DNA of 49,271 bases from positions 1 to 49,271 of the forward strand of contig JAAZEL010000048.1 in assembly GCA_012512325.1 (NCBI GenBank), written 5' to 3'. The position numbers and the translations under genes are program-made. A model generated the notes under the pieces. It saw nothing but the letters and a program-made list of their open reading frames with translations, was not told the DNA's origin and did no database searches. Positions 8,644-24,716 of the stretch are shown here, one piece after another. Each line of letters opens with the position of its first letter. Positions within the stretch are counted from its first letter, which is position 1. This DNA is from Candidatus Fermentithermobacillaceae bacterium (GTDB taxonomy: Bacteria; Bacillota; Sulfobacillia; Fermentithermobacillales; Fermentithermobacillaceae).

Positions 8644-9525
8644 ATGAGGCCGATTTGGAACGGAACCCTGGCCTTCGGCCTGGTAGTAATACCAGTGAGG
8701 CTTTATGCGGCTACCCAGAGGCAAAACGTGGCTTTCCGCTTGCTCCATTCGGAATGCCATTCTCCCGTGAGGTACCGGAAGTGGTGCCCCGCCTGCAACC
8801 TTCCCCTCGAACCCGGGGAGATCGCAAGAGGTTACGAATATGAGAAAGGCCGGTTCGTTATACTGACCGACGAAGAGGTGGAAGCCGTGCCCGGGCCTGA
8901 TGCCCATAAAGTGGAAATCCTGGACTTCGTCAAGCTTGAAGACGTGGATCCTGTGTTCTTCGAGAAAAGCTACTTCTTGGAACCCAGGGACGGCGCTGAG
9001 AAAGCCTACAAGCTTCTGCTGGAATCCATGAAGCAGCAGGGCAAGGTAGCCGTCGCCAGGGTAGCCCTCAGGGCCAGGGAGACTCTGGCCGTGGTAAGGA
9101 CGTACAAGGACAGCTTCATCATGCTTGAAACCATGTATTGGGCAGATGAAGTAAGGGCCGGCCAGGAACTCAGAGTTCCTGAAGACGCCGAGCTGGATGA
9201 AAGGGAAATGAAGCTGGCAATCACTCTGATTGAAACGTTGTCATCTGAGTTTGAGCCTGAGAAGTACAAGAGCCGTCAAAGACAGGCTCTGGAGGAGATC
9301 ATACAGCGAAAAATCCAAGGCAAGCAGATCGTTGCCGAACCGGAGAAGGCTCCCGAGGTCATTGACCTCATGGAAGCCTTGCGCAGGAGCGTGGAAAGGG
9401 CTAAGACGGGGAACGTGGCTGCAGGTGCCGGGGTTACGGAAGCCGGCGGGGACGCCGGAAGCAGCCCAGGCAGCGGTCTAGGTGGGACCGTTGAGGAAAT
9501 GGGCTCAGGCCCGGCAGGCAGGTGA
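8644..9525 (+). CDS. ku: Non-homologous end joining protein Ku
   Basis: 293-aa bacterial Ku, a homodimeric ring that binds double-strand DNA ends and recruits LigD. It begins MRPIWNGTLAFGLVVIPVRLY, the usual Ku N-terminus, followed by a CHSP....CPAC putative zinc-knuckle region and KLLLESMKQQGKVAVARVALR. The C-terminal 45 residues are a Gly/Ala/Ser-rich tail. It is followed 9 bases later by the ligase gene. In Bacillus, Ku and LigD are made in the forespore and repair spore DNA at germination; the sporulation neighbours here fit that role. Confidence 0.96.
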   Translation: MRPIWNGTLAFGLVVIPVRLYAATQRQNVAFRLLHSECHSPVRYRKWCPACNLPLEPGEIARGYEYEKGRFVILTDEEVEAVPGPDAHKVEILDFVKLEDVDPVFFEKSYFLEPRDGAEKAYKLLLESMKQQGKVAVARVALRARETLAVVRTYKDSFIMLETMYWADEVRAGQELRVPEDAELDEREMKLAITLIETLSSEFEPEKYKSRQRQALEEIIQRKIQGKQIVAEPEKAPEVIDLMEALRRSVERAKTGNVAAGAGVTEAGGDAGSSPGSGLGGTVEEMGSGPAGR

Positions 9526-9534
9526 AGGCGGCCT

Positions 9535-10464
9535 GTGCTTGCGGGAATGCCTGATATCCGGCCCATGTTGGCACAAACCTGGCCTACTGCATTCGACGAC
9601 AAAGACTGGCTGTTTGAACTGAAGTGGGACGGCTACAGATGCCTGCTTTATATAGGGGGCTCTCAAGCCTTCCTGAGGTCCCGGAACGGCAGACCTCTCA
9701 ATCAACGATTCCCTGGACTTGAATCAATTGTGAAATGCGTAAGAGGCCACAATTTCCGCAACTTAATCGCAGACGGGGAGATTGTGGCCTTCAAAGACGG
9801 CCGGCCCGATTTCTCCTTTCTGAGAGCCAATCCTGATTGCGCAGTGTATGTAGCCTTTGATCTCCTGTATTTCAACGACCAACCATTGTTTACAGTGCCC
9901 CTGGTTGACCGCAGGCACAAGCTTTCTCAGGTTTTCACCTTGAACGGCCTGGTATATTTGTCAGAAGCCCAGGAAGAGATGGGGCGAGACCTCTTCGAAT
10001 TTGCCAAAGGGTGGGATCTTGAGGGGATCATGGCAAAACGCAAACATAGCCTGTACTTCCCGGGAAAAAGGAGCCGCGACTGGCTGAAAATCAAGAATCT
10101 TAAAGAAGAGGATCTGTGGGTGGTAGGCTATTATCCTTCCCCAGGACGGAAAATAGGCTCTTTGCTGGTTGCAAAAGAAGGCGCTGCGCCAGGGCTTGAC
10201 TCCGGGGACGGTCCCCGGAGACGGAATTTCGTGCTCATGGGCAGGGTATCTTCGGGGCTTGACCAAAGCACCGAAAAAACCCTTACGGCAGCATTTGGAG
10301 ATCCTGCACCTGACAAGGCGGTTCATTTTGAGGGCAAACTAGGTGAAGGGGAATTGCGGGAAGTCAGGTGGATCGAGCCGTTTTTCGGCGTAAGAGTGCA
10401 GTACACCGAAATTACACCTGAGGGCAGGCTGAGACATCCTGTGCTGAAAGAAGTCATTTGGTGA
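9535..10464 (+). CDS. ligD: ATP-dependent DNA ligase, LigD ligase domain
   Basis: 309-aa stand-alone ligase of the LigD type, sealing breaks brought together by Ku. The adenylation motif ELKWDGYR places the nucleotide-accepting lysine at K30; further motifs are LIADGEIVAF, YVAFDLLYF, EGIMAKRK and DWLKIKN. The C-terminal OB-fold region includes the family's ending R.RHPVLKEVIW. A Gly/Ser-rich insert lies at about residues 222-232. The GTG at 9535 (alternative ATG 9547) follows ku closely. In many bacteria ligase and polymerase are one protein; here the polymerase domain is a separate downstream gene. Confidence 0.93.
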   Translation: MLAGMPDIRPMLAQTWPTAFDDKDWLFELKWDGYRCLLYIGGSQAFLRSRNGRPLNQRFPGLESIVKCVRGHNFRNLIADGEIVAFKDGRPDFSFLRANPDCAVYVAFDLLYFNDQPLFTVPLVDRRHKLSQVFTLNGLVYLSEAQEEMGRDLFEFAKGWDLEGIMAKRKHSLYFPGKRSRDWLKIKNLKEEDLWVVGYYPSPGRKIGSLLVAKEGAAPGLDSGDGPRRRNFVLMGRVSSGLDQSTEKTLTAAFGDPAPDKAVHFEGKLGEGELREVRWIEPFFGVRVQYTEITPEGRLRHPVLKEVIW

Positions 10465-10560
10465 ACTCTGGCTCCAGGGTTGGGGCATGGTGCCCCCCAG
10501 AATTAGCAGGTCTGCGGTATTCCTCGGTTAGCAGGTAATGTCGAGGATGGGGATGCGGAG

Positions 10561-11495
10561 GTGCAGGCAGGGATTGGGAGCAAGCGAGTAGACGTTGCGG
10601 TAGGCGGCAGAAGGGTCACCTTGTCCAACCTGGACAAGGTGCTGTGGCCGCGGCAAGACTTTACCAAAGGGGATCTCATTGAGTACTACGCGAGAGTAGC
10701 CAAATGGCTGCTTCCTCACCTGAAAGACAGGCCCCTTTCCTTGGTGCGGTTTCCCCAGGGGATAGCCGGGAAAGGCTTCTATCAAAAAGACGCCCCCAGG
10801 GTACCCCGGATTGGGTCAGGATAGCTCCGGTGTGGTCCAAGGACAAGCAATCATACATCAATTTCATACTATGCGATAATGTGGAGACTTTGATATGGAT
10901 GGCCAACCTTGGAACCATCGAGATAAACCCGTGGCTTTCAAGGTTCCCTTCCCTTGACAAGCCTGACTTTGCAGTTTTTGACATCGATCCGGCGGACGGG
11001 ACTACCTGGCCCGATGTGGTGCTTGTAGCCAAGCTGGTCAAGGAGCTTTTGGATGAGTGGAAGCTGGAGGGATTTCCCAAGGTGTCGGGAGGCACGGGCA
11101 TTCACATCTACGTACCCCTTGAGCCTGTGTACACCTACAGGGAGTCTGCGGCCTTTGTCCGATTTGCGGCCGAACTGATCCGGCAAGCATATCCTGAGAA
11201 AGTGACTTTGGAACGCATAGTGAGACAAAGGTACGGCCATGTCTACATCGATTACCCTCAAAATGCCAGGGGCCAGACCATTCTGGCGGCGTACGGCGTG
11301 AAGGCACTGGACGGGGCGCCCGTCTCGGTTCCGGTTTTGTGGGATGAACTGGACCAAGTTGGCCCGCAATCGAGGAACATCAAAACGGTTCCGGATAGGC
11401 TGGAACGGATGGGGGATCCCTTCGCCGAAGCCCTCACCCGGAAGCAAGATATAAATCCCATTTTACAGAATGCCCTTTCGGGAAATACTATGTGA
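10561..11495 (+). pseudogene. LigD-type primase-polymerase domain, broken by a -1 frameshift
   Basis: Two frames together encode one LigD polymerase (AEP primase-like) domain. The first (from GTG 10561) has the N-terminal part with LSNLDKVLWP, LIEYYARVAKWLLPHLKDRPLSLVRFP and GKGFYQKDAP, then stops at 10822-10824. The second, one frame back, carries TPDWVRIAPVWS, LIWMANLGTIEINPW, the catalytic FDIDP motif, the SGGTGIHIYVPL motif and YVDYPQN-like YIDYPQNARG, stopping at 11493-11495. The match to the family is continuous if one C is added to the five-C run at 10793-10797. A sequencing error, a real inactivating deletion or slippage could explain it. It would supply the gap-filling polymerase for end joining by the adjacent Ku and ligase. 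Confidence 0.88.
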
Positions 11496-14429: not shown

Positions 14430-14891
14430 ATGACAATTGAAGAAAAGCTGGCTGAACTGGGGTTGTCCCTTCCTGAAGTTCCCACACCGGTGGCTTCATA
14501 TGTGCCAGCAGTAAAGCAAGGCAACTGGGTGCACGTTTCAGGCCAGATTCCCTTGAGGGACGGAAAACTCCGGGTAACCGGCAAGGTAGGCAGCGAGATT
14601 ACCTTGGAGGAAGCCCAGGCAGAGGCCAAGCAGTGTGCCCTCAACGCCCTGGCGGTCATCAAGAGCGTTGTCGGCTCCCTGGACAAGGTAGAACGCATAG
14701 TCAAGGTAACAGGTTTCGTAGCATGTTCCCCGGATTTTACGGATGCCCCTAAAGTGGTCAACGGTGCTTCCGATCTGTTCCTTGAGGTGTTCGGGGACAA
14801 AGGCAGACATGCAAGGGCGGCCGTAGGTGTTGCGGCTCTTCCCCTTGACTGTGCGGTGGAAGTGGAAGTCATAGCTTTTGTTAAGGAATAG
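14430..14891 (+). CDS. ridA: RidA/YjgF family protein (reactive imine/enamine deaminase-like)
   Basis: 153-aa RidA-family trimer-forming protein. RidA hydrolyses reactive 2-aminoacrylate-type enamines released by PLP enzymes. The long bacterial subgroup pattern is seen: KLAELGLSLPEVPTPVASYVPAVKQGNWVHVSGQIP, then LEEAQAEAKQCALNALAVIKSVVGSLDKVERIVKVTGFVACSPDF and GRHARAAVGVAALPLDCAVEVE. The family arginine in GRHARAA is retained. AGGAGGT lies 9 bases before the ATG. A promoter and palindrome precede it, and a regulator plus a B12 enzyme cluster follow, suggesting amino-acid or amine catabolism. Confidence 0.93.
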   Translation: MTIEEKLAELGLSLPEVPTPVASYVPAVKQGNWVHVSGQIPLRDGKLRVTGKVGSEITLEEAQAEAKQCALNALAVIKSVVGSLDKVERIVKVTGFVACSPDFTDAPKVVNGASDLFLEVFGDKGRHARAAVGVAALPLDCAVEVEVIAFVKE

Positions 14892-14960
14892 AGCATAAGA
14901 CAAAATTCGCAGCCGGCTTGCCGGTATGGGCTTGTGTTTATCGTTTGTTTGGGGGAGGTG

Positions 14961-15719
14961 ATGTTCCTGAGAGTCGATTCCAAGGAGGTTTATTTCCGAG
15001 CCCTTCAAGCCATAGGAGAGTCTTCCCGGCCCATTGGCGCCTGGCGCCTCAGCAGGCTGCTCGAAGCAAAGGGTGTGACGCTGTCTAAGGCCACTGCAGG
15101 CAGAATCCTGAAAGCCCTGGAGGATAACGGCCATGTACGCATTCAAGGCCGCATAGGCAGGGTGATCACCGCCCGGGGGCAGGAGGCTCTCCAGGAGTGG
15201 CTCAGTGAACAAGTGAACAGGGAATCCCACATCGCTTTGGCGGAAAGCCTTACAATCCGAGGCCGCAAGCATCTCATAGATGCTTTGATCGCCCGCCGTG
15301 CCATTGAAAGCGAGACCGCTTATCTGGCAGCCCAAAATGTGAGTGATGAAGATCTCAGGAAATTAGAGAAAATAATCCATGAGCACGCAGAACTTCTCAA
15401 GGCAGGTCATTCAGGAGCTGAAAAGGATGCGGAGTTTCACCGGGGCTTGGCGGAAGCCTGCAAGAACAGGGTGCTTGCAAGCGCCCTGGATGTAATCTAC
15501 AACAGCCCGCAAATAGGCCGTGCACTTGAGTACATCCGTGGGAAAGTGGGTTCTCAGATGGTCAAAGACCACAGGCAGATCCTGGTCCAGGTAGCCCGAC
15601 GGGACAAGGAAGGCGCAAGACTGGCCATGACCGAGCATATAGACGGAGTTATAAGGGACGTGGATAAATACTGGACCGAGATGGCAAGACCTCAAGGGGG
15701 GCGGAAAGATGTCGGTTAG
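14961..15719 (+). CDS. Transcriptional regulator: NrpR-type winged helix fused to an FCD-like domain
   Basis: 252-aa predicted repressor. Residues 10-80 (YFRALQAIGESSRPIGAWRL...TLSKATAGRILKALEDNGHV...GRVIT) look like the winged helix of NrpR-type proteins rather than a standard GntR domain. Residues 100-245 look like an FCD ligand-binding domain, with helices containing RRAIESETAYLAA, DAEFHRGLAEA and KDHRQILVQVARRDKEGARLAMTEHI, whose Asp/His positions suggest a metal or carboxylate site. The ATG at 14961 lies within a GGGGGAGGTG region. It overlaps the next gene by 11 bases. It may bind the palindrome upstream of ridA and sense a substrate of the downstream B12 enzyme. Confidence 0.75.
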   Translation: MFLRVDSKEVYFRALQAIGESSRPIGAWRLSRLLEAKGVTLSKATAGRILKALEDNGHVRIQGRIGRVITARGQEALQEWLSEQVNRESHIALAESLTIRGRKHLIDALIARRAIESETAYLAAQNVSDEDLRKLEKIIHEHAELLKAGHSGAEKDAEFHRGLAEACKNRVLASALDVIYNSPQIGRALEYIRGKVGSQMVKDHRQILVQVARRDKEGARLAMTEHIDGVIRDVDKYWTEMARPQGGRKDVG

Positions 15720-15936
15720 GCACCGTATTCTCGATGGATGCGACCTTGAAACATTCATTGTCTGCAAAGACGTAGAGGAGGGTAAGACCCTCGGTTTGAG
15801 GCTCATGGCAGAACTGGGATTTGAAGATGCCGACGTGGTGTTCTGCGAAATGGGAGGCCCCGGTGTGAGGATAAGGTTGAGAGGCTATGTGTACCGGCCC
15901 TCGGCAGATTACCAGTGGTATGACCTGGAGGTGTAA
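15709..15936 (+). CDS. Small protein of unknown function, first gene of the B12-enzyme cluster
   Basis: 75-aa protein, not recognised. It has an ILDGCDLETFIVCKDVEEGKTLGLRLMAELGFEDADVVFCEMGG core with a mix of helix and strand, and ends acidic. AAGGGGGGCGG lies upstream of the ATG. It overlaps the regulator gene by 11 bases, and the next gene's TTG start comes 4 bases after its stop, with that gene's GGAGGTG site inside its last codons. Such tight coupling suggests a small subunit or partner of the B12-dependent protein, comparable in position to small subunits of aminomutases, but no homology to those was seen. Confidence 0.75.
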   Translation: MSVRHRILDGCDLETFIVCKDVEEGKTLGLRLMAELGFEDADVVFCEMGGPGVRIRLRGYVYRPSADYQWYDLEV

Positions 15937-15940
15937 ACAC

Positions 15941-17782
15941 TTGGCACAAGGACGCAGCAATGGAATAACGCCCCGAAAAGTGGTGCTTGCCCCGTTGGAT
16001 CCGGTTCACGATGTAGGCCTCAAACTGATCCGGAGGAAGCTACTTGAACGAGGGCACCACGTGGCTCTGCTTCCGCCTGACCTTTCAATGGAAGAAATCG
16101 TGGCACGGGCAAAAGCCGAAGACCCCGACTTTATCATGATAAGCCGGGCCTTGAGTTACGGCATCTCCGAGCTCCTGGCCAAATTCGTTGACCTTTGCGA
16201 TGCCGCGGGATTGAGGGAAAGGGCTAAGCTGGTTGCAGGCGGCCTGAGCATGAAGCCTGTCATCGCCCAGGAATTGGGGTTCGATGCGGGTTTCGGGCCT
16301 GACACCCCGGCAGAAGCGGCAGTGGCGTATGTGGAAGGACATGAGCCGGGCCTGTCAACCGGCGGCAGACGCCGGGAGAAGGCCGATCTTACAGCCGGGT
16401 TTACGTACAAGTTCCGGGATGCTGAGATCGGTTCCCTCTGCACAACCATAGCCCGGCAGCTCATCGACTGGGCAAGCAAGCGCACCAGTTCAGGTGTGGA
16501 AAGAGCTCATCTGAGAATCGAGATGGAGTCCCAAAGGGATTCTAATACGGCGCTGTATCCGAGACTCAGGGATGAATACGCCGCTTTGACATCGGGTGAG
16601 ATAAGAGAATGGTATCTCACAGGCAAGCCTGTATCCCATACGAGGCCTGTCACTGAAAAAGAGGCAGGCTACATCAGGTCGCTGTGGGAGAACGCCGACA
16701 AGATCGAGATCCCCAGGTCCCAGGAAATACTCAACGAGCGCAACGTATTTGTCCAGTACGGAACCGGTTGTCCCGTGATGGACGCCTACCACATAAGCCT
16801 GAGCGTGGCTTGGGGGGCAAGGGGTGTAGTCCATTTCGACCCGTCTTGGGGTGCCAGGAACGAAGGCCTGTTGGAACAGGCATGGAGCCACGAGCACGAC
16901 GGGACGGTGCTTACCCTTGACAACCTCCGCTTGATAAGGGGCGGTATCATCCCCGGTATCCTGTGGCAGGTAAGAGCCCACAGGGGGCTCAATACCCCCG
17001 AAACGGTGGTGCTGGCTCACCTGTCCGGTGCTGATCTGACCAAGATAAACATCGTATACGGCAGTTTGGCTGCAGGCGCGGACCCCGAGCGATTGGCCGT
17101 GGACGGAGTGGAAGCCATGAAGCTTGCCGCCAAGTACAACTTGCCCTACGACGTAGTCACCAATGAGGAGCTTGCGGGAGTCCCTGCCTTCAAGGCTTTC
17201 GCAGGCATGTTGATAGTTGCCGCGGCGGGAGTGCTGTTGGGCGGGCGGCCCTTGTTACAGCCGCTGTTTGCCAATTCCCCCGAAGGCATGATCGTAGGGT
17301 ACACAGAGGACAATTTCATCGACTTCAACGTAGCCAAGATGAAAGTCCTGTCTTCAATCATAGACGCACCCATCTGGCCGGGTGCGCCTGTAGGCTTCCT
17401 TACCCAGACCCAGGATAGGTGCCAGTCATCGGTGATGACGGCGCTTCACGCGGCCCTGGCCCTGGATTCAGGGGCAACCGCCGTGACCATCGCTTCGTCA
17501 GACGAGGCTTACGCAGGTGGCCCAATCACGGCTCCTGCTCGGGTGGATAGCCTGAAAGCTGCCGCCGCTGCGTTGAGGTTTTTCGGCCAGGGCGGCATCA
17601 GGCCGACCCCTGAAGCTGACAGGATTGCAGAGAAGATAAGGGAGGGCATCCTGGAGGTGCTCAAGAAGGTGGCTGCCCGGGGCGATTTTGTGGCATCCCT
17701 TTACGAAGGAGACCTTGGAGACAGAGAGGACGGGGCGTATCCGGGTAGGTCAGGTAAGGGCACCGTTACTTTGAAGCGATAA
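15941..17782 (+). CDS. Putative B12-dependent mutase: N-terminal cobalamin-binding domain plus GlmE/OraE-like barrel
   Basis: 613-aa protein. Residues 13-125 form a B12-binding domain: VHDVG with H23 (lower axial ligand) and G26, S68 exactly 41 residues after that glycine, and GG at 100-101, close to the DxHxxG-41-SxL-26/28-GG rule. The aspartate normally two before the histidine is proline, with D20 one step earlier. After a linker, residues 240-600 resemble the barrel of glutamate mutase E or ornithine/lysine aminomutase: VFVQYGTGCPVMDAYHISLSVAWGARGVVHFDPSW and a Gly-rich end. The TTG start follows GGAGGTG by 7 bases. The substrate is unknown; fusion with the B12 domain first is unusual. 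Confidence 0.78.
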   Translation: MAQGRSNGITPRKVVLAPLDPVHDVGLKLIRRKLLERGHHVALLPPDLSMEEIVARAKAEDPDFIMISRALSYGISELLAKFVDLCDAAGLRERAKLVAGGLSMKPVIAQELGFDAGFGPDTPAEAAVAYVEGHEPGLSTGGRRREKADLTAGFTYKFRDAEIGSLCTTIARQLIDWASKRTSSGVERAHLRIEMESQRDSNTALYPRLRDEYAALTSGEIREWYLTGKPVSHTRPVTEKEAGYIRSLWENADKIEIPRSQEILNERNVFVQYGTGCPVMDAYHISLSVAWGARGVVHFDPSWGARNEGLLEQAWSHEHDGTVLTLDNLRLIRGGIIPGILWQVRAHRGLNTPETVVLAHLSGADLTKINIVYGSLAAGADPERLAVDGVEAMKLAAKYNLPYDVVTNEELAGVPAFKAFAGMLIVAAAGVLLGGRPLLQPLFANSPEGMIVGYTEDNFIDFNVAKMKVLSSIIDAPIWPGAPVGFLTQTQDRCQSSVMTALHAALALDSGATAVTIASSDEAYAGGPITAPARVDSLKAAAAALRFFGQGGIRPTPEADRIAEKIREGILEVLKKVAARGDFVASLYEGDLGDREDGAYPGRSGKGTVTLKR

Positions 17783-17821
17783 TAGCTGCTGTTATATAAG
17801 GTAGAACGATGGCAAGGCGAA

Positions 17822-17866
17822 GTACCGGACGGGGTACGGCCGGCAGCGACATTTTCAGTTGCCGGC
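17822..17866 (+). other. Tandem hairpins between the B12-enzyme gene and the NTPase gene
   Basis: GTACC/GGTAC (17822-17837) and GCCGGCA/TGCCGGC (17839-17845 and 17860-17866) form two adjacent stems in the 136-bp gap. There is no U-tract after them, so they may be a processing or stability element rather than a terminator. Confidence 0.5.
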
Positions 17867-17918
17867 TTGCCCGGTGTCCGGTAAACCTATTATGTCCCTG
17901 AAATGGTGGATGAATTGC

Positions 17919-18971
17919 ATGAGAGTCTTAGGATTTGCCGGCACGGCTAAGAACACGGGCAAGACCACCACCCTGGAGGCAACGATCAAGTTCTTCGCGG
18001 ATAAACACAAGAACCTTTTCATCACGGGCATAGGCTATGACGGTGAGGATTTCGACAATCTCACCGGGCTTCCCAAGCCCAGGGTGTTTGTGCCTGAGGG
18101 GGCGGTAGTTGCAAGCGCCTTGCCCCTCTTGGAATCATCGGATGCCAAGTTCACTGACCTGAGGGACACCGGGGTGAGGTGTGCCGTGGGCCGTATATTC
18201 TTAGGCACCGCTACGGCACCCGGCCGGGTGGTCCTCGCCGGGCCCGCAAGCGCCAAGGACCTGTCTGCGGTTCTGGCCTTTGCCCCCGATGATTCAGTTG
18301 TGTTGCTTGACGGGGCGTTCTCAAGGATATCCCCTATGGTGGTCGCCGATTCCCTGATCCTGGCAACAGGCGCGGCGAGGAGCCGGGATTCCCACAGGAT
18401 TGCCAGGGAGATCAATGCCATCCACAAGGTTATGGACTTGCCTGTGATCTACGGCCCGTCCCCGGGGCCTGGCACGGGGCAAACGTCCGGCGACGGGACC
18501 TTGAACGTGTCAGGTGGGCTTTTCCTTCCTGGTCAGGGACAAGAACTTGCATGGCGTCTGGACGGAGCAGGAAAACCCAGCACAGTGTGTGTAACCGGGA
18601 TCGTCAATCCCCAGGTGTTCCTGGAAGCCCTTGGCGAAATGGACTTAGACGGCCGCAGAGACCTGACGGTTGTGTTTGACCATCCCATTATGCTTCTCTT
18701 GTCGGGGGATCTTCTGCGCTGGGAAGAGGTTTTCGGCGCCATTCCCGAGGCAGGGCTCGCAGTCGGGGTTCGTGCCTCAACTGAGCTCCTGGGTGTCACC
18801 ATCAATCCGTATACGCCTACTGAGTCGGGCGCCGGCAAGTATATTGCAAGCTATGTGCCTCCCGAGAGCTTCCTCGGAGACATAGACGGGCTCACCCAAA
18901 TCCCTTGCACGGATATAATGTTGGAAGGCCCGGGCAAGCTCCATTCCTGGCTGGAGAAGTTCTTGGACTGA
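17919..18971 (+). CDS. P-loop NTPase, possible chaperone or reactivase for the B12 enzyme
   Basis: 350-aa protein starting MRVLGFAGTAKNTGKTTTLE, a P-loop of the MobB/CobQ-like SIMIBI type (TAKNTGKT at residues 9-16, with T instead of the first glycine). GIGYDGEDFDN and VVLLDGAFSRISPMV suggest switch and Walker B regions. The rest is not recognised. A ribosome site (GGTGG) precedes ATG 17919. Its place after a B12-dependent enzyme recalls MeaB-type and Kam-operon ATP/GTP-binding reactivators, which load or repair cobalamin. The function is inference from context. Confidence 0.72.
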   Translation: MRVLGFAGTAKNTGKTTTLEATIKFFADKHKNLFITGIGYDGEDFDNLTGLPKPRVFVPEGAVVASALPLLESSDAKFTDLRDTGVRCAVGRIFLGTATAPGRVVLAGPASAKDLSAVLAFAPDDSVVLLDGAFSRISPMVVADSLILATGAARSRDSHRIAREINAIHKVMDLPVIYGPSPGPGTGQTSGDGTLNVSGGLFLPGQGQELAWRLDGAGKPSTVCVTGIVNPQVFLEALGEMDLDGRRDLTVVFDHPIMLLLSGDLLRWEEVFGAIPEAGLAVGVRASTELLGVTINPYTPTESGAGKYIASYVPPESFLGDIDGLTQIPCTDIMLEGPGKLHSWLEKFLD

Positions 18972-21120: not shown

Positions 21121-21334
21121 TTTGTGGCCTCCTCAGTGGTTCTAACCAGAGTATTTCCAAGAGGGCCGCATGGCTAACCGGTTGGGGCCCGGGAATCAGC
21201 GGAAAACATGACCTTCAATTTGAAAGGTATTTGGGTTACAATATGGGTGTGTCCGCAAGGACCTACGCTGAAGGGCGTTCGGCCTTGGGCGAACCGCCCA
21301 CAAGTAAATAGCCATCGGTTGACTAACCACATTC
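21121..21334. other. Stretch upstream of the cobalamin riboswitch
   Basis: Together with 20804-20853 this is the remainder of a 530-bp stretch with no other recognisable gene. A TACAAT -10 at 21237-21242 with a weak TTCAAT -35 (21214-21219, 17-base gap) could start the riboswitch transcript about 85 bases before its first conserved base. A TTGACT at 21319-21324 has no matching -10. Confidence 0.3.
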
Positions 21335-21505
21335 AGGTGCCCGGCACGGGAGAATAGGGAAGTCCGGTGAAGCGCCAAGAGCGCAAGTCCGGCGCGGTGC
21401 CGCCACTGTAACCGGGGAGCAACCTGCCGAATCCACTGAAAGATGCGTCTTTCGGGAAGGGGCAGGGGCGATGAGCCGGAAGCCAGGAGACCTGCCTGAG
21501 TGTGC
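21335..21505 (+). promoter_or_regulatory. Cobalamin (B12) riboswitch
   Basis: Conserved segments appear in the right order: GGTGCCCGGC and GGGAA at the 5' part, the GCGCC...GGCGCGGTGCCGCCACTGTAACCGGGGAGC core (near 21371-21420), and the B12 box AGCCAGGAGACCTGCC at 21481-21496. It precedes the btuFCD-type transporter genes. In this class adenosylcobalamin binding lowers downstream expression, here probably through the terminator that follows. Confidence 0.96.
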
Positions 21506-21543
21506 ACGTCGCCTGACTTCGAGCGAGAGGAGGGGACGTTTTT
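21506..21543 (+). terminator. Riboswitch-linked intrinsic terminator
   Basis: ACGTC-g-CCT (from 21506) pairs with AGG-g-GACGT (ending 21539), an 8-bp stem with one mismatch, followed by a run of five T. Being directly after the B12 box it fits a transcription-attenuation expression platform. Confidence 0.7.
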
Positions 21544-21759
21544 ATGTGCGCAAAAACCTGCACCCGGCCTGAGCCGGACTTCTGTGTACCACAGCGCTTC
21601 TGAACACTGTCACTTCGAAGACCCATGAGCTTGTTTTCGGGAGCCCCTGTGGCTGCATTTCCAAGCCTATGACCATTGGTGCAGCGTTCAACGGAAACCG
21701 GAACAAGGCCAGGGTCCCGGTACGAGGTAACAAACGAGAAGAACGGGGGTACACGAGGG

Positions 21760-22722
21760 ATGATTTCACAAGATAACGCTGGGAAGACAAAAACCATGGC
21801 GAGGAGAGGCGTTGGCTTAGCGGCGGCCTTGGCACTGGTCCTGGGCATAGTTGCCGGGCTCTTGGGGCCGGTGCTTACCGGGTGTTCGCCACGTTCACAA
21901 ACATTCACAGACGGCGTCGGCAGAACCATCGAGCTCGAGCAGATTCCTGAAAGGTTAGGCTCCATCTCGCCTGCCCACACAGAAATCCTGTTTGCCCTGG
22001 GATTGGGCGATAAAGTGGTCTGTGTCAGCAATTGGTGTAACAGGCCGGAACAGGCGCTCCAAAAGGAGAAGGTGGGGGACGCCTTCAGCCTCGATAAAGA
22101 AAAACTCGTTGCCCTAAAGCCTGACCTGGTTTTTGTCCCGGGAACGGCCGATTCACAGCAAGGGAAGGAAATTGAGGACTTGGGGATCCCTGTATACTTG
22201 TCGAGCCCGGGCAGCATTGGCGAGGCGCTTGAAGATATCAGGCGGGTGGCCAAGATCACCGGTGTTGAGGAACAGGGCAGACAACTGGCGGAGCAAATGG
22301 AGCAAGAGCTAGACGATTTGTCAGCCGAAATCGAGGCTCTTGGAAGTCCCAAGCCGTCAGTCCTGGTGGTGCTCGACCAAGATCTTTGGACGGTTGGGCC
22401 GGGCTCCTTCATGGATGACGTGCTTAGCCATGCAGGCGGGGTTAACGTAGTCCAAGATGTTGACATGCAGTACCTTCAGATAAGCATGGAAGATGTCTTG
22501 GACAAAGATCCTGACGTGATCTTGGTGACCATCCCGGAGGAGTTTATTGCAGGGCTCAAGTCCCGCCCGGGCTGGTCGGATCTGCGGGCGGTCAAAGAAG
22601 GCAAGGTGTATTTTGTGGACGGCGATCTGACCAGCAGGCAAGGGCCGTCCATCGTTGACGGCGTCAAGGAGATTGCCAGGCATCTCTGCCCGGAGTTGGC
22701 AGGTCAGGAGTCAGGCAGCTGA
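21760..22722 (+). CDS. btuF: Cobalamin ABC transporter substrate-binding lipoprotein (BtuF-like)
   Basis: 320-aa periplasmic-binding-type lipoprotein of the FecB/BtuF family. A basic N-terminus and hydrophobic segment end in the lipobox LTGC (C42). The mature part has TDGVGRTIELEQIPERLGSISPAHTEILFALGLGDKVVCVSNWC and KVGDAFSLDKEKLVALKPDLVFVPG, typical of this family. ATG 21760 is chosen for its upstream G-rich site; ATG 21796 is possible and still keeps the signal peptide. The riboswitch 250 bases upstream defines the ligand as a corrinoid. Confidence 0.93.
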   Translation: MISQDNAGKTKTMARRGVGLAAALALVLGIVAGLLGPVLTGCSPRSQTFTDGVGRTIELEQIPERLGSISPAHTEILFALGLGDKVVCVSNWCNRPEQALQKEKVGDAFSLDKEKLVALKPDLVFVPGTADSQQGKEIEDLGIPVYLSSPGSIGEALEDIRRVAKITGVEEQGRQLAEQMEQELDDLSAEIEALGSPKPSVLVVLDQDLWTVGPGSFMDDVLSHAGGVNVVQDVDMQYLQISMEDVLDKDPDVILVTIPEEFIAGLKSRPGWSDLRAVKEGKVYFVDGDLTSRQGPSIVDGVKEIARHLCPELAGQESGS

Positions 22723-22771
22723 CCTGAGGCCGGAAACGCCGGGAACCGGGGAGACCAAGGGGGTGCACGGG

Positions 22772-23806
22772 GTGCACAACAAAGAGAGAGCGGCCGCGCG
22801 GAAGCTCGGTCCGCTTCCGGCAACGGTTTCAGTGGCTTGCTTCATCATCTGTGTATCCTTGGGCCTATCCCTGGGTAGCGTTTCAATACCGCTCAAGGAC
22901 ATCATCGCATCCCTGCTGGCAGGCCCAGGTGCAGAGGATGCCCCTACCGAGCACACAATCCTTTGGACCCTCAGGTTCCCCAGAGTGCTCCTGGCTTTTG
23001 TGGAAGGAGCCTCCTTGGGGGTTGCAGGGGCGGCTATGCAGGGACTGTTCAGAAACCCCATGGCCGATCCATATGTCTTGGGAGTTTCGTCGGGCGCCTC
23101 CTTAGGCGCTGTGCTTGGGATAACCTTCGGAGCCGGGAGGGCCCTGGGGCTTTGGGCTCTCCCGGTGCTCGCCTTTGCCGGGGCCTTTGTGTCTACCGGG
23201 ATCGTGTATGTATTGGCCACAAGAAACGGGCGCACTGATACGTGGACCCTGCTCTTGTCGGGGATCGCAGTGTCCAGCCTCGTCTCCTCGCTTATAGCCT
23301 TCCTCATGGTGTTTTTCAGGCAAAGGGTTGAAGAGATCGTGTTCTGGACAATGGGGGGATTGTCCAGGGCATCCTGGAAAGCGCTAGCTTCTGCTTTTCC
23401 ATATGCCCTTGCCGGCGTGGGGATCCTGTGGTCCCAATCCAAGGCGCTAAACGCCTTTTCTTTCGGAGAAGAAGCCGCATTCCACATGGGGGTATCGGTG
23501 GAAAGGGTCAAACGGCGCATCCTCTGGGCGAGTTCACTGACCACGGCAAGTTGCGTTGCGTTTACCGGACCCATCGGCTTCATTGGCCTCATAGTTCCCC
23601 ATGTGGTAAGGCTCTTTATAGGACCCGATCATCGATGGCTCATGCCTGTATCGGCCCTTGCAGGAGGCAATGCCCTTGTGTTGGCTGACCTGCTGGCCCG
23701 CACCATAACCCCTCCCTTGGAAACCCCTGTGGGCGTCATAACATCGCTGTTTGGAGCCCCGTTTTTCTTGTACCTGCTGGTAAAGGTCCGAAGGCGGGGG
23801 ATGTGA
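22772..23806 (+). CDS. btuC: Cobalamin ABC transporter permease (BtuC/FecCD family)
   Basis: 344-aa multi-spanning permease. Family signatures include LSLGSVSIPLKDI, LRFPRVLLAFVEGASLGVAGAAMQGLFRNPMADPYVLGVSSGASLGA, LLSGIAVSSLVSSLIAFLMVF, WTMGGLSRASW and GFIGLIVPHVVRLFIGPDHR, the cytoplasmic loop that contacts the ATPase. The GTG at 22772 has AAGGGGG 8 bases upstream; GTG 22763 is too close. It lies between btuF and the ATPase gene in one operon. Confidence 0.95.
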   Translation: MHNKERAAARKLGPLPATVSVACFIICVSLGLSLGSVSIPLKDIIASLLAGPGAEDAPTEHTILWTLRFPRVLLAFVEGASLGVAGAAMQGLFRNPMADPYVLGVSSGASLGAVLGITFGAGRALGLWALPVLAFAGAFVSTGIVYVLATRNGRTDTWTLLLSGIAVSSLVSSLIAFLMVFFRQRVEEIVFWTMGGLSRASWKALASAFPYALAGVGILWSQSKALNAFSFGEEAAFHMGVSVERVKRRILWASSLTTASCVAFTGPIGFIGLIVPHVVRLFIGPDHRWLMPVSALAGGNALVLADLLARTITPPLETPVGVITSLFGAPFFLYLLVKVRRRGM

Positions 23807-23822
23807 GATGGAGGGAGCCATG

Positions 23823-24716
23823 ATGGGAGATAGCATGATCCGAGCAGGCCTGGGTATATCGGTGAGTAACGTGCGCTTCGCTTACGATGGACACAAAATC
23901 CTGGATGACATCAAGCTGCATATACCCAAGGGTACGTTTTCGGCACTCCTGGGGCCTAACGGAGCCGGCAAGAGCACCCTCCTCAAGGTGATCTCTGGTT
24001 ACCTTGAGCCACAGCAAGGCGAGGTCCTGGTATGCGACAAGCGAGTCCATTCCATGAAGGACAGAGACAGAAGCCGTCTGATAACTTACGTGGCGCCTGA
24101 CTACCGTTCATCCTTTGAGTTCACCGTGGAAGAGGCGGTAATGATGGGGAGGATTCCCCATTCCGATTCCCTCATTGGCAGCTCCGCCCGGGACATTGAG
24201 GCCGCTGAACGTGCCATGCTGGCCACCAAGATAATCCACCTGCGTGACAGGCCTGTAACTGCCCTTTCTTCGGGAGAGCAGCAGAGGGTGCAGATAGCCC
24301 GGGCCATCTGCCAGGAGCCGGAAGTGCTTCTGCTGGATGAGCCCACAGCCCACCTTGACATGAGCTTCGAACTGGAAATGATGGATATACTGGGGCAACT
24401 TGTGGGACAAGGCCGAACTGTGCTCGCCGTTTTCCACGATGTGAACCTTGCGTTGAGAAACGCATCAACCCTGTTTTTCCTCAAGCAAGGTGAGTTAGTA
24501 GAGTCAATCCATCCTGACCGGATATCCCCTGAGATTATCGAAAAGGTATATGGAGTAAAGGCCCGCATTCTCGAAGACTCCGGGGGGAAGTTCCGCTGTG
24601 TGGTGCCCTATTCCCTCGCCGGCTCCACCGACACTCCCCGGGAAACACCGGAGGGCCGCTCAGGCCCCGAAACGCCTCAAGTCAACGAGGGCGGTTTCCC
24701 TGTCTGGTTGTCCTAG
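23823..24716 (+). CDS. btuD: Cobalamin ABC transporter ATP-binding protein (BtuD-like)
   Basis: 297-aa ATPase energising BtuC/F. Walker A GPNGAGKS (44-51), signature LSSGEQQ, Walker B VLLLDEP with the D-loop AHLD and switch histidine in VFHDVNLA are all intact. A C-terminal extension of about 40 residues rich in Gly/Pro/Thr follows the usual domain. ATG 23823 has GGAGGGAG spaced 5 bases; ATG 23808, directly after the btuC stop, is an alternative. It is the last gene of the riboswitch-controlled operon. Confidence 0.94.
   Translation: MGDSMIRAGLGISVSNVRFAYDGHKILDDIKLHIPKGTFSALLGPNGAGKSTLLKVISGYLEPQQGEVLVCDKRVHSMKDRDRSRLITYVAPDYRSSFEFTVEEAVMMGRIPHSDSLIGSSARDIEAAERAMLATKIIHLRDRPVTALSSGEQQRVQIARAICQEPEVLLLDEPTAHLDMSFELEMMDILGQLVGQGRTVLAVFHDVNLALRNASTLFFLKQGELVESIHPDRISPEIIEKVYGVKARILEDSGGKFRCVVPYSLAGSTDTPRETPEGRSGPETPQVNEGGFPVWLS

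Follow-up and report, generated by a model that had tools for sequence, protein, structure and literature searches.

The stretch analysed here, the window, comprises the 49,271 nucleotides of contig JAAZEL010000048.1 (assembly GCA_012512325.1, Candidatus Fermentithermobacillaceae bacterium) and carries a compact operon built around MUT, a protein resembling adenosylcobalamin (AdoCbl)-dependent mutases, in which the B12-binding domain precedes the barrel. MUT is flanked upstream by a small protein, p75, and downstream by KBL, a P-loop NTPase resembling KamB of lysine 5,6-aminomutase (LAM). A first-pass annotation, made from the letters alone, had singled out these three frames as a possible B12-dependent mutase system behind a regulator and a RidA gene, and all of them are present:

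14430-14891, + strand: RidA/YjgF-family enamine/imine deaminase-like protein, 153 aa (PF14588 E 5e-25, PF01042 E 6e-22)
14934-15719, + strand: FCD-domain (GntR/FadR-like) regulator (PF07729 E 2e-24, plus winged-helix HTH_12)
15709-15936, + strand: p75, 75 aa, stand-alone homologue of the dimerisation domain of LAM-beta/OraE and obligate MUT partner (model, Foldseek, hhalign, linkage)
15941-17782, + strand: MUT, 613-aa AdoCbl mutase-like protein, B12 domain then barrel (model, Foldseek, tblastn relatives)
17919-18971, + strand: KBL, KamB-like P-loop NTPase, proposed reactivase (NF052386, hhalign, tree)
17940-17969, + strand: Walker A motif of KBL, GTAKNTGKTT (sequence; motif G.AKN.GKT[ST] in 75/75)

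The end of the regulator gene overlaps the start of p75 by 11 nucleotides. The likeliest start of MUT is the TTG at 15941, with GGAGGTG 7 nucleotides upstream (the open-reading-frame lister starts at 15887), and that of KBL is the ATG at 17919. Pfam recognizes only the B12-binding domain of MUT (PF02310, E 4e-13, 49.6 bits, passing the gathering cut-off of 32.1), along with the regulator and RidA, while p75 and KBL match zero Pfam families at E <= 1.

Full-length relatives of MUT are found in well over 100 genomes of Bacillota, Thermotogota and Candidatus Adiutrix. The gene occurs throughout the window's whole order and is scattered in its class, where 32 of 154 genomes carry it. It is found in many anaerobes. 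Carriers include Fermentithermobacillaceae, Tepidanaerobacter, Thermovorax, Desulfovirgula, Desulfosporosinus, Heliobacterium chlorum, Sporomusa malonica, Sporomusa acidovorans, Pseudothermotoga, Halobacteroidaceae, Paenibacillus sp. P25 and Candidatus Adiutrix; a search of the open-access literature found no paper on the family. Gene order was compared at 21 related loci, from the window's order and class, and across phyla at the best 80 of 110 candidate stretches confirmed by tblastn in the named genome collection. p75 lies directly upstream of MUT at 21/21 related loci and at 79 of the 80, the single locus without it being cut by a contig end. KBL is present at 20/21 and 63/80, and the FCD regulator at 20/21 related loci. 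The linkage of p75, MUT and KBL is far above chance, bearing out the tight arrangement described in the first-pass annotation, of whose two upstream genes RidA proves not to be obligate (about 47/80). Two MUT copies, 76-81% identical, are present in each of four genomes (L180/L209, L178/L203, L182/L221 and L192/L207), which suggests duplication, perhaps for two substrates.

Structures were predicted with AlphaFold and compared with the PDB by Foldseek, and profiles were compared by hhalign with KamD, KamE and KamB. The MUT model (pLDDT 90.3, pTM 0.86), made ligand-free and without p75, first matches LAM alpha (1xrs_A, E 6.4e-15, 511 columns), followed by ornithine 4,5-aminomutase (OAM, 2e-9), glutamate mutase (E 1.5e-8), and then the fused isobutyryl-CoA mutase IcmF and methylmalonyl-CoA mutase. 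Its N-terminal domain also matches LAM beta. In the profile comparison, the B12 domain aligns with KamE (E 1e-22) and the barrel with KamD (p 1.3e-4), the latter collinearly over 402 columns, starting at the N-terminal helices and ending in the glycine-rich C-terminal tail. The barrel had been labelled GlmE/OraE-like, which was too vague, the relevant class being LAM/OAM and the nearest fold LAM alpha, to which the barrel is closer than to GlmE. Taken alone, the B12 domain has a Moorella corrinoid protein as its top PDB sequence match, as would be expected if MUT were the corrinoid protein of a methyl-transfer system and not a radical mutase. This is highly improbable, since the barrel resembles those of LAM, OAM and GlmE and not methyltransferase barrels, the Glu that contacts the adenosyl group never varies, the NTPase beside MUT belongs to the reactivase type, and the recurrent neighbours include no recognized methyltransferase or RamA-like gene.

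The homology to characterized enzymes is at the level of fold and does not extend to family membership. The LAM beta family NF052385 scores 44.8 bits on the B12 domain against a cut-off of 280, the OAM family NF040743 25 bits on MUT against 800, and the GlmE family TIGR01503 13.8 bits against 390 (E 0.015, C-terminal part). Searches of MUT with PF09043 and with PF06368 (GlmE) gave zero matches. Placement in the GlmE family, suggested by the TIGR01503 match and the Glu330 motif, was ruled out, PF06368 being unmatched and the LAM fold the better one. These results support MUT as a distinct AdoCbl mutase outside every Pfam and NCBIfam enzyme family at cut-off, in agreement with the earlier claim of a distinct enzyme. 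MUT descends from or beside LAM/OAM and is a member of neither the LAM, the OAM nor the GlmE families.

Both partners lead to the same class. The top 7 of 350,542 PDB chains matched by the p75 model (pLDDT 90.1) are all LAM or OAM, and the superposition on OAM has a root-mean-square deviation of 1.4-1.7 Å over 53-54 columns, the small size of the domain keeping the E-values (0.009-0.045) modest. The hhalign match to the KamE N-terminus has p 1.3e-5, and subunits of the p75 type measure 75-90 aa. KBL matches NF052386 (KamB, the LAM reactivase subunit) at E 1e-45, its 155.8 bits falling under the equivalog cut-off of 210, and aligns with KamB over its full length (hhalign E 5e-61, 325 columns); the NTPase partner proposed in the first-pass annotation is thus of the KamB type. 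In the tree, KBL and KamB occupy separate clades (KamB clade support 1.0). KBL is proposed as the putative reactivase for p75-MUT. A LAM/OAM barrel match is absent in the MUT-bearing genomes G024, G029, G041, G042 and G049; because MUT occurs in such genomes, KBL has a separate clade and a KamC-like gene is missing from all 80 loci, MUT is not a LAM accessory. Since Foldseek and hhalign agree, all four functional parts are nearest to the LAM/OAM toolkit, and their order is new.

Within MUT, the following domains and residues are distinguished:

15983-16324, + strand: N-terminal B12-binding Rossmann domain, LAM-beta type (PF02310; hhalign with KamE)
15998-16018, + strand: variant cobalamin motif D-P-V-H-D-V-G, residues 20-26 (DPVHD in 97/97; KamE alignment)
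16733-17590, + strand: barrel, residues 265-550, limits approximate (DSSP of the model; hhalign with KamD)
16838-16840, + strand: Asp300, invariant, at the LAM Arg184 position (PLP phosphate; KamD and OraE profile alignments agree)
16982-16984, + strand: Arg348 in invariant RAHRG, at the LAM Ser238 position (PLP pyridine N; profile alignments)
17057-17059, + strand: Tyr373, invariant, at the LAM Tyr263 position, sole PLP-pocket residue retained (profile alignments)
17504-17506, + strand: Glu522, invariant, at the position of glutamate mutase Glu330 and OAM Glu338 (GlmE, KamD and OraE alignments)

Residue conservation was read from 97 aligned MUT sequences, 83 of them distinct over the last 400 residues. 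The B12 pocket is retained (axial His, GG, fold), as the structure prediction suggested earlier as a check now shows in the model. His23, at the axial ligand position, is invariant within D-P-V-H-D (97/97). The Pro that the first-pass annotation read at the Asp position of DxHxxG is correct and no local oddity, as it replaces the canonical Asp in every MUT, an Asp standing three residues before the His. The exact spacing of 41 residues also holds, from G26 to Ser68.

The site for pyridoxal phosphate (PLP) appears altered as well. LAM binds PLP through Lys144 in its B12 subunit and through barrel residues, the barrel contacts being Arg184, Gly187, Gln188, Ser189, Tyr236, Ser238, Tyr263, Arg268 and Asn299 (PMC3958899). 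As a positive control, all nine are identical in 21 OraE sequences. Across the 97 MUT sequences, eight of the nine are replaced and only Tyr263 is retained, as Tyr373. Arg184 becomes the invariant Asp300, Ser238 the invariant Arg348, and Arg268 Ala or Gly, while the phosphate-binding RSTGQS reads DPSWGAR; two independent alignments, one through KamD and one through OraE, concur on these replacements. The Lys144 loop is absent in the alignment of MUT with KamE, with no lysine 11 residues after the His, and the alignment gives MUT no equivalent of the OAM PLP lysine, Lys629. From the absent lysine and the replaced pocket we infer a PLP-independent AdoCbl radical mutase; judged by its sequence, MUT looks like an AdoCbl radical enzyme with a rebuilt PLP site. 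In OAM, Glu338 promotes Co-C homolysis, and in glutamate mutase Glu330 does so (PMC4413051). Glu330 lies at the ribose of the adenosyl group. Glu522 aligns directly to GlmE E330 and KamD E410, with OraE joined through its own alignments to both. Other invariant polar residues of MUT are Asp300, Arg345, His347, Arg348, Asn408 and Glu409.

The same residues bear on the alternative that MUT is still an aminomutase dependent on both PLP and AdoCbl, catalysing the 1,2-shift of an amino group in a D- or beta-amino acid by means of another lysine or no internal aldimine. The nearest fold is that of LAM/OAM, the PLP-stacking Tyr263 persists as Tyr373, the invariant Lys28 and Lys368 are present, and LAM and OAM use D-amino acids, the Thermotogota operon being rich in D-amino-acid genes. 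With Lys144/Lys629 and the loop gone, RSTGQS turned into DPSWGAR, and an Asp and an Arg in place of Arg184 and Ser238, this alternative appears unlikely.

Taking sequence and model together, p75 and MUT probably constitute a third lineage within the LAM/OAM class, with its parts rearranged, and form a PLP-free two-component radical mutase with KBL as its reactivase. Several points weigh against this. KBL is absent from the fetched stretch at 17/80 MUT loci, some of them cut by contig ends, and a KamC-like gene was sought at the 80 loci and found at 0/80; in LAM operons, KamB is accompanied by KamC. The profile match between the barrel and KamD is weak alone, and the claim leans on the ligand-free AlphaFold model without p75. 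The Pro in DxHxxG means that cobalamin binding must differ in detail. Finally, the loss of PLP is read from alignments, and PLP could be bound another way.

LAM (KamD/KamE; PDB 1xrs, 8t0v, 9q1a) carries out a 1,2-amino shift on D-lysine or beta-lysine. The proposed lineage shares with it the barrel fold, the type of B12 domain, a dimerisation-domain homologue, a KamB-type NTPase, the adenosyl-contacting Glu and the axial His. In contrast to LAM, the B12 domain of MUT precedes the barrel in one chain, the dimerisation domain is separate, the PLP lysine and pocket are missing, the DxHxxG Asp is Pro, and the loci contain neither KamC nor lysine-fermentation genes. KBL, sharing full-length homology and Walker A with KamB, differs from it in clade, in its score under the KamB cut-off and in having no KamC partner. 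OAM (OraS/OraE; PDB 3kow) likewise has two components, a large chain with barrel and B12 domain, and the same fold. OraE, however, is ordered as barrel, dimerisation domain and B12 domain with PLP Lys629, unlike MUT, and the PLP pocket is conserved in OAM and not in MUT. Glutamate mutase (GlmE/GlmS) shares a B12 domain and barrel, the Glu330 equivalent and, if MUT is indeed PLP-free, the independence from PLP; its subunits are separate, p75 is lacking, and its family PF06368 is not matched by MUT. The known partner of glutamate mutase is GlmL/MutL, not a KamB-like NTPase. Glutamate mutase grips substrate carboxylates with an arginine claw, and MUT has the invariant Arg345 and Arg348. MUT is proposed to work most like glutamate mutase.

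IcmF also carries an N-terminal B12 domain and a barrel in one chain with an associated NTPase function, but has a CoA-type barrel and a G-protein domain within the chain, and matches MUT much more weakly. The first-pass annotation had held that the B12 part is C-terminal or separate in known mutases; this was mistaken, and the B12-first order is not unique, because IcmF and a further family share it. The latter, a second uncharacterized B12-first family in the window's genome (L040 4283-6010, - strand, G000:C34; 575 aa), has a GlmE-like barrel and the motif D-C-V-H-V-A-G, with the Asp three before the His. Its neighbours are an opine-dehydrogenase-like and a D-Ala-D-Ala-ligase-like gene, and 20 sequences were collected including its own (relatives L124-L143).

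In the proposed mechanism, p75 would help assemble MUT, a task that falls to the dimerisation domain in LAM/OAM. The substrate would be bound directly at the place of PLP by the invariant Asp300, Arg345, His347, Arg348, Asn408 and Glu409, its binding shutting the B12 domain over the barrel in a glutamate mutase-like manner. Glu522 may then assist Co-C cleavage, whereupon the adenosyl radical would take a hydrogen from the substrate, a group would shift by one carbon (1,2-migration) and the hydrogen would be re-abstracted. KBL would exchange damaged cobalamin using nucleotide, as the KamB annotation suggests. The product would enter a catabolic route under FCD control, with the SelA/DgaE-like PLP enzyme, the FAD oxidoreductase and RidA handling ammonia release and imine or enamine intermediates. 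What the analysis shows is homology, fold, conservation, linkage and co-occurrence, while PLP independence, the kind of migration, the part played by KBL, the amino-acid character of the substrate and all of the chemistry are inferred.

These last proteins are recurrent neighbours. The usual cross-phylum cluster runs DUF6917 - RidA - SelA/DgaE-like PLP enzyme (488 aa) - GidA-like FAD oxidoreductase - (permease) - FCD - p75 - MUT - KBL. The SelA/DgaE-like enzyme is the most consistent extra partner of MUT: among the 154 genomes of the class, both genes occur together in 31, MUT without the PLP enzyme in 1, the PLP enzyme without MUT in 3 and neither in 119 (Fisher p 6e-28, optimistic because the genomes are related), and the lone MUT-only genome is 80% complete. 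In the window's genus, the genes for the PLP enzyme and the FAD oxidoreductase are located on contigs other than that of MUT. The functionally uncharacterized Pfam family DUF6917 (PF21891) accompanies the SelA-like enzyme (L234 9795-10259, - strand; L163 470-892, + strand), and at L161 3034-3939 (+ strand) a single 301-aa frame matches DUF6917 and RidA as a fusion. The partner genes (SelA/DgaE-like, RidA, DUF6917, FAD oxidoreductase, FCD and permease) point to amino-acid catabolism, and MUT may act on an amino- or carboxy-substrate, as the first-pass annotation suggested. In Thermotogota relatives, the same-strand cluster further contains a PAS_6 regulator, a DAO-type FAD enzyme, a TAXI/TRAP transporter, an Asp/Glu-racemase-family gene, a SoxA-like three-part dehydrogenase, and a dehydrogenase and an epimerase of diaminopimelate (DAP), which suggests the breakdown, by way of imines, of an amino acid that may have the D configuration or two carboxyl groups. 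Nearby genes for nicotinate phosphoribosyltransferase and pseudouridine synthase, a hint of nicotinate fermentation, were rejected as pathway members, being adjacent at only some loci. No riboswitch clue to the MUT substrate was found at 9 loci.

In its fullest form, the PLP-free reading describes MUT as an AdoCbl mutase of the carbon-skeleton (or amino) type that became independent of PLP within the PLP-aminomutase lineage, opening a new anaerobic catabolic pathway for an amino acid of D- or dicarboxylic type (e.g. cell-wall diaminopimelate) with its own reactivase and the DUF6917/SelA-like pair; this is offered tentatively, as one possibility. A narrower choice of substrate would have the operon degrade a diamino-dicarboxylic acid, e.g. 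diaminopimelate from cell-wall debris, with MUT rearranging it or a keto or epimer derivative. DAP dehydrogenase (TIGR01921) and DAP epimerase (TIGR00652), both above cut-off, stand directly before p75-MUT-KBL in Pseudothermotoga-type genomes, with the Asp/Glu racemase-family gene and the TAXI/TRAP transporter upstream, and the invariant Arg345 and Arg348 could bind carboxylates. Ddh and DapF are, however, found only in the Pseudothermotoga-type lineage, and this DapF is the only copy in each genome, so that it may be housekeeping and is no proof of a DAP substrate; this narrowing is considered unlikely.

Elsewhere in the window, the sole riboswitch is a cobalamin riboswitch (RF00174, 107 bits) at 21318-21513 (+ strand), 2.3 kb past the mutase operon, and the genes behind it, at 21676-24716, look like those of a corrinoid importer of the BtuF/BtuC/BtuD type. 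The same genome contains, on another contig, a complete-looking lysine-fermentation operon (kamA, kamB, MutS-like kamC, kamD, kamE and a dehydrogenase; L037, G000:C4) and a D-ornithine aminomutase cluster (L038, G000:C33), from which the organism is probably an amino-acid fermenter. Three genes at 8644-11495 (+ strand), read by eye as Ku, ATP-dependent DNA ligase and LigD-type polymerase, would make up a split bacterial set for non-homologous end joining.

In conclusion, the known types of AdoCbl mutase are, to our knowledge, very few, and p75-MUT would add a third branch of the LAM/OAM class, with Tepidanaerobacter, Sporomusa malonica and Heliobacterium chlorum among its named carriers. In this branch the domain order is rearranged and different invariant residues stand where the PLP pocket would be. 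Should it prove free of PLP, MUT would bridge the PLP aminomutases and glutamate mutase, and the contribution of PLP in this fold would become testable. The system also ties DUF6917, the GidA-like FAD oxidoreductase and the uncharacterized SelA-like PLP enzyme to a single route by which anaerobes probably break down an amino acid.

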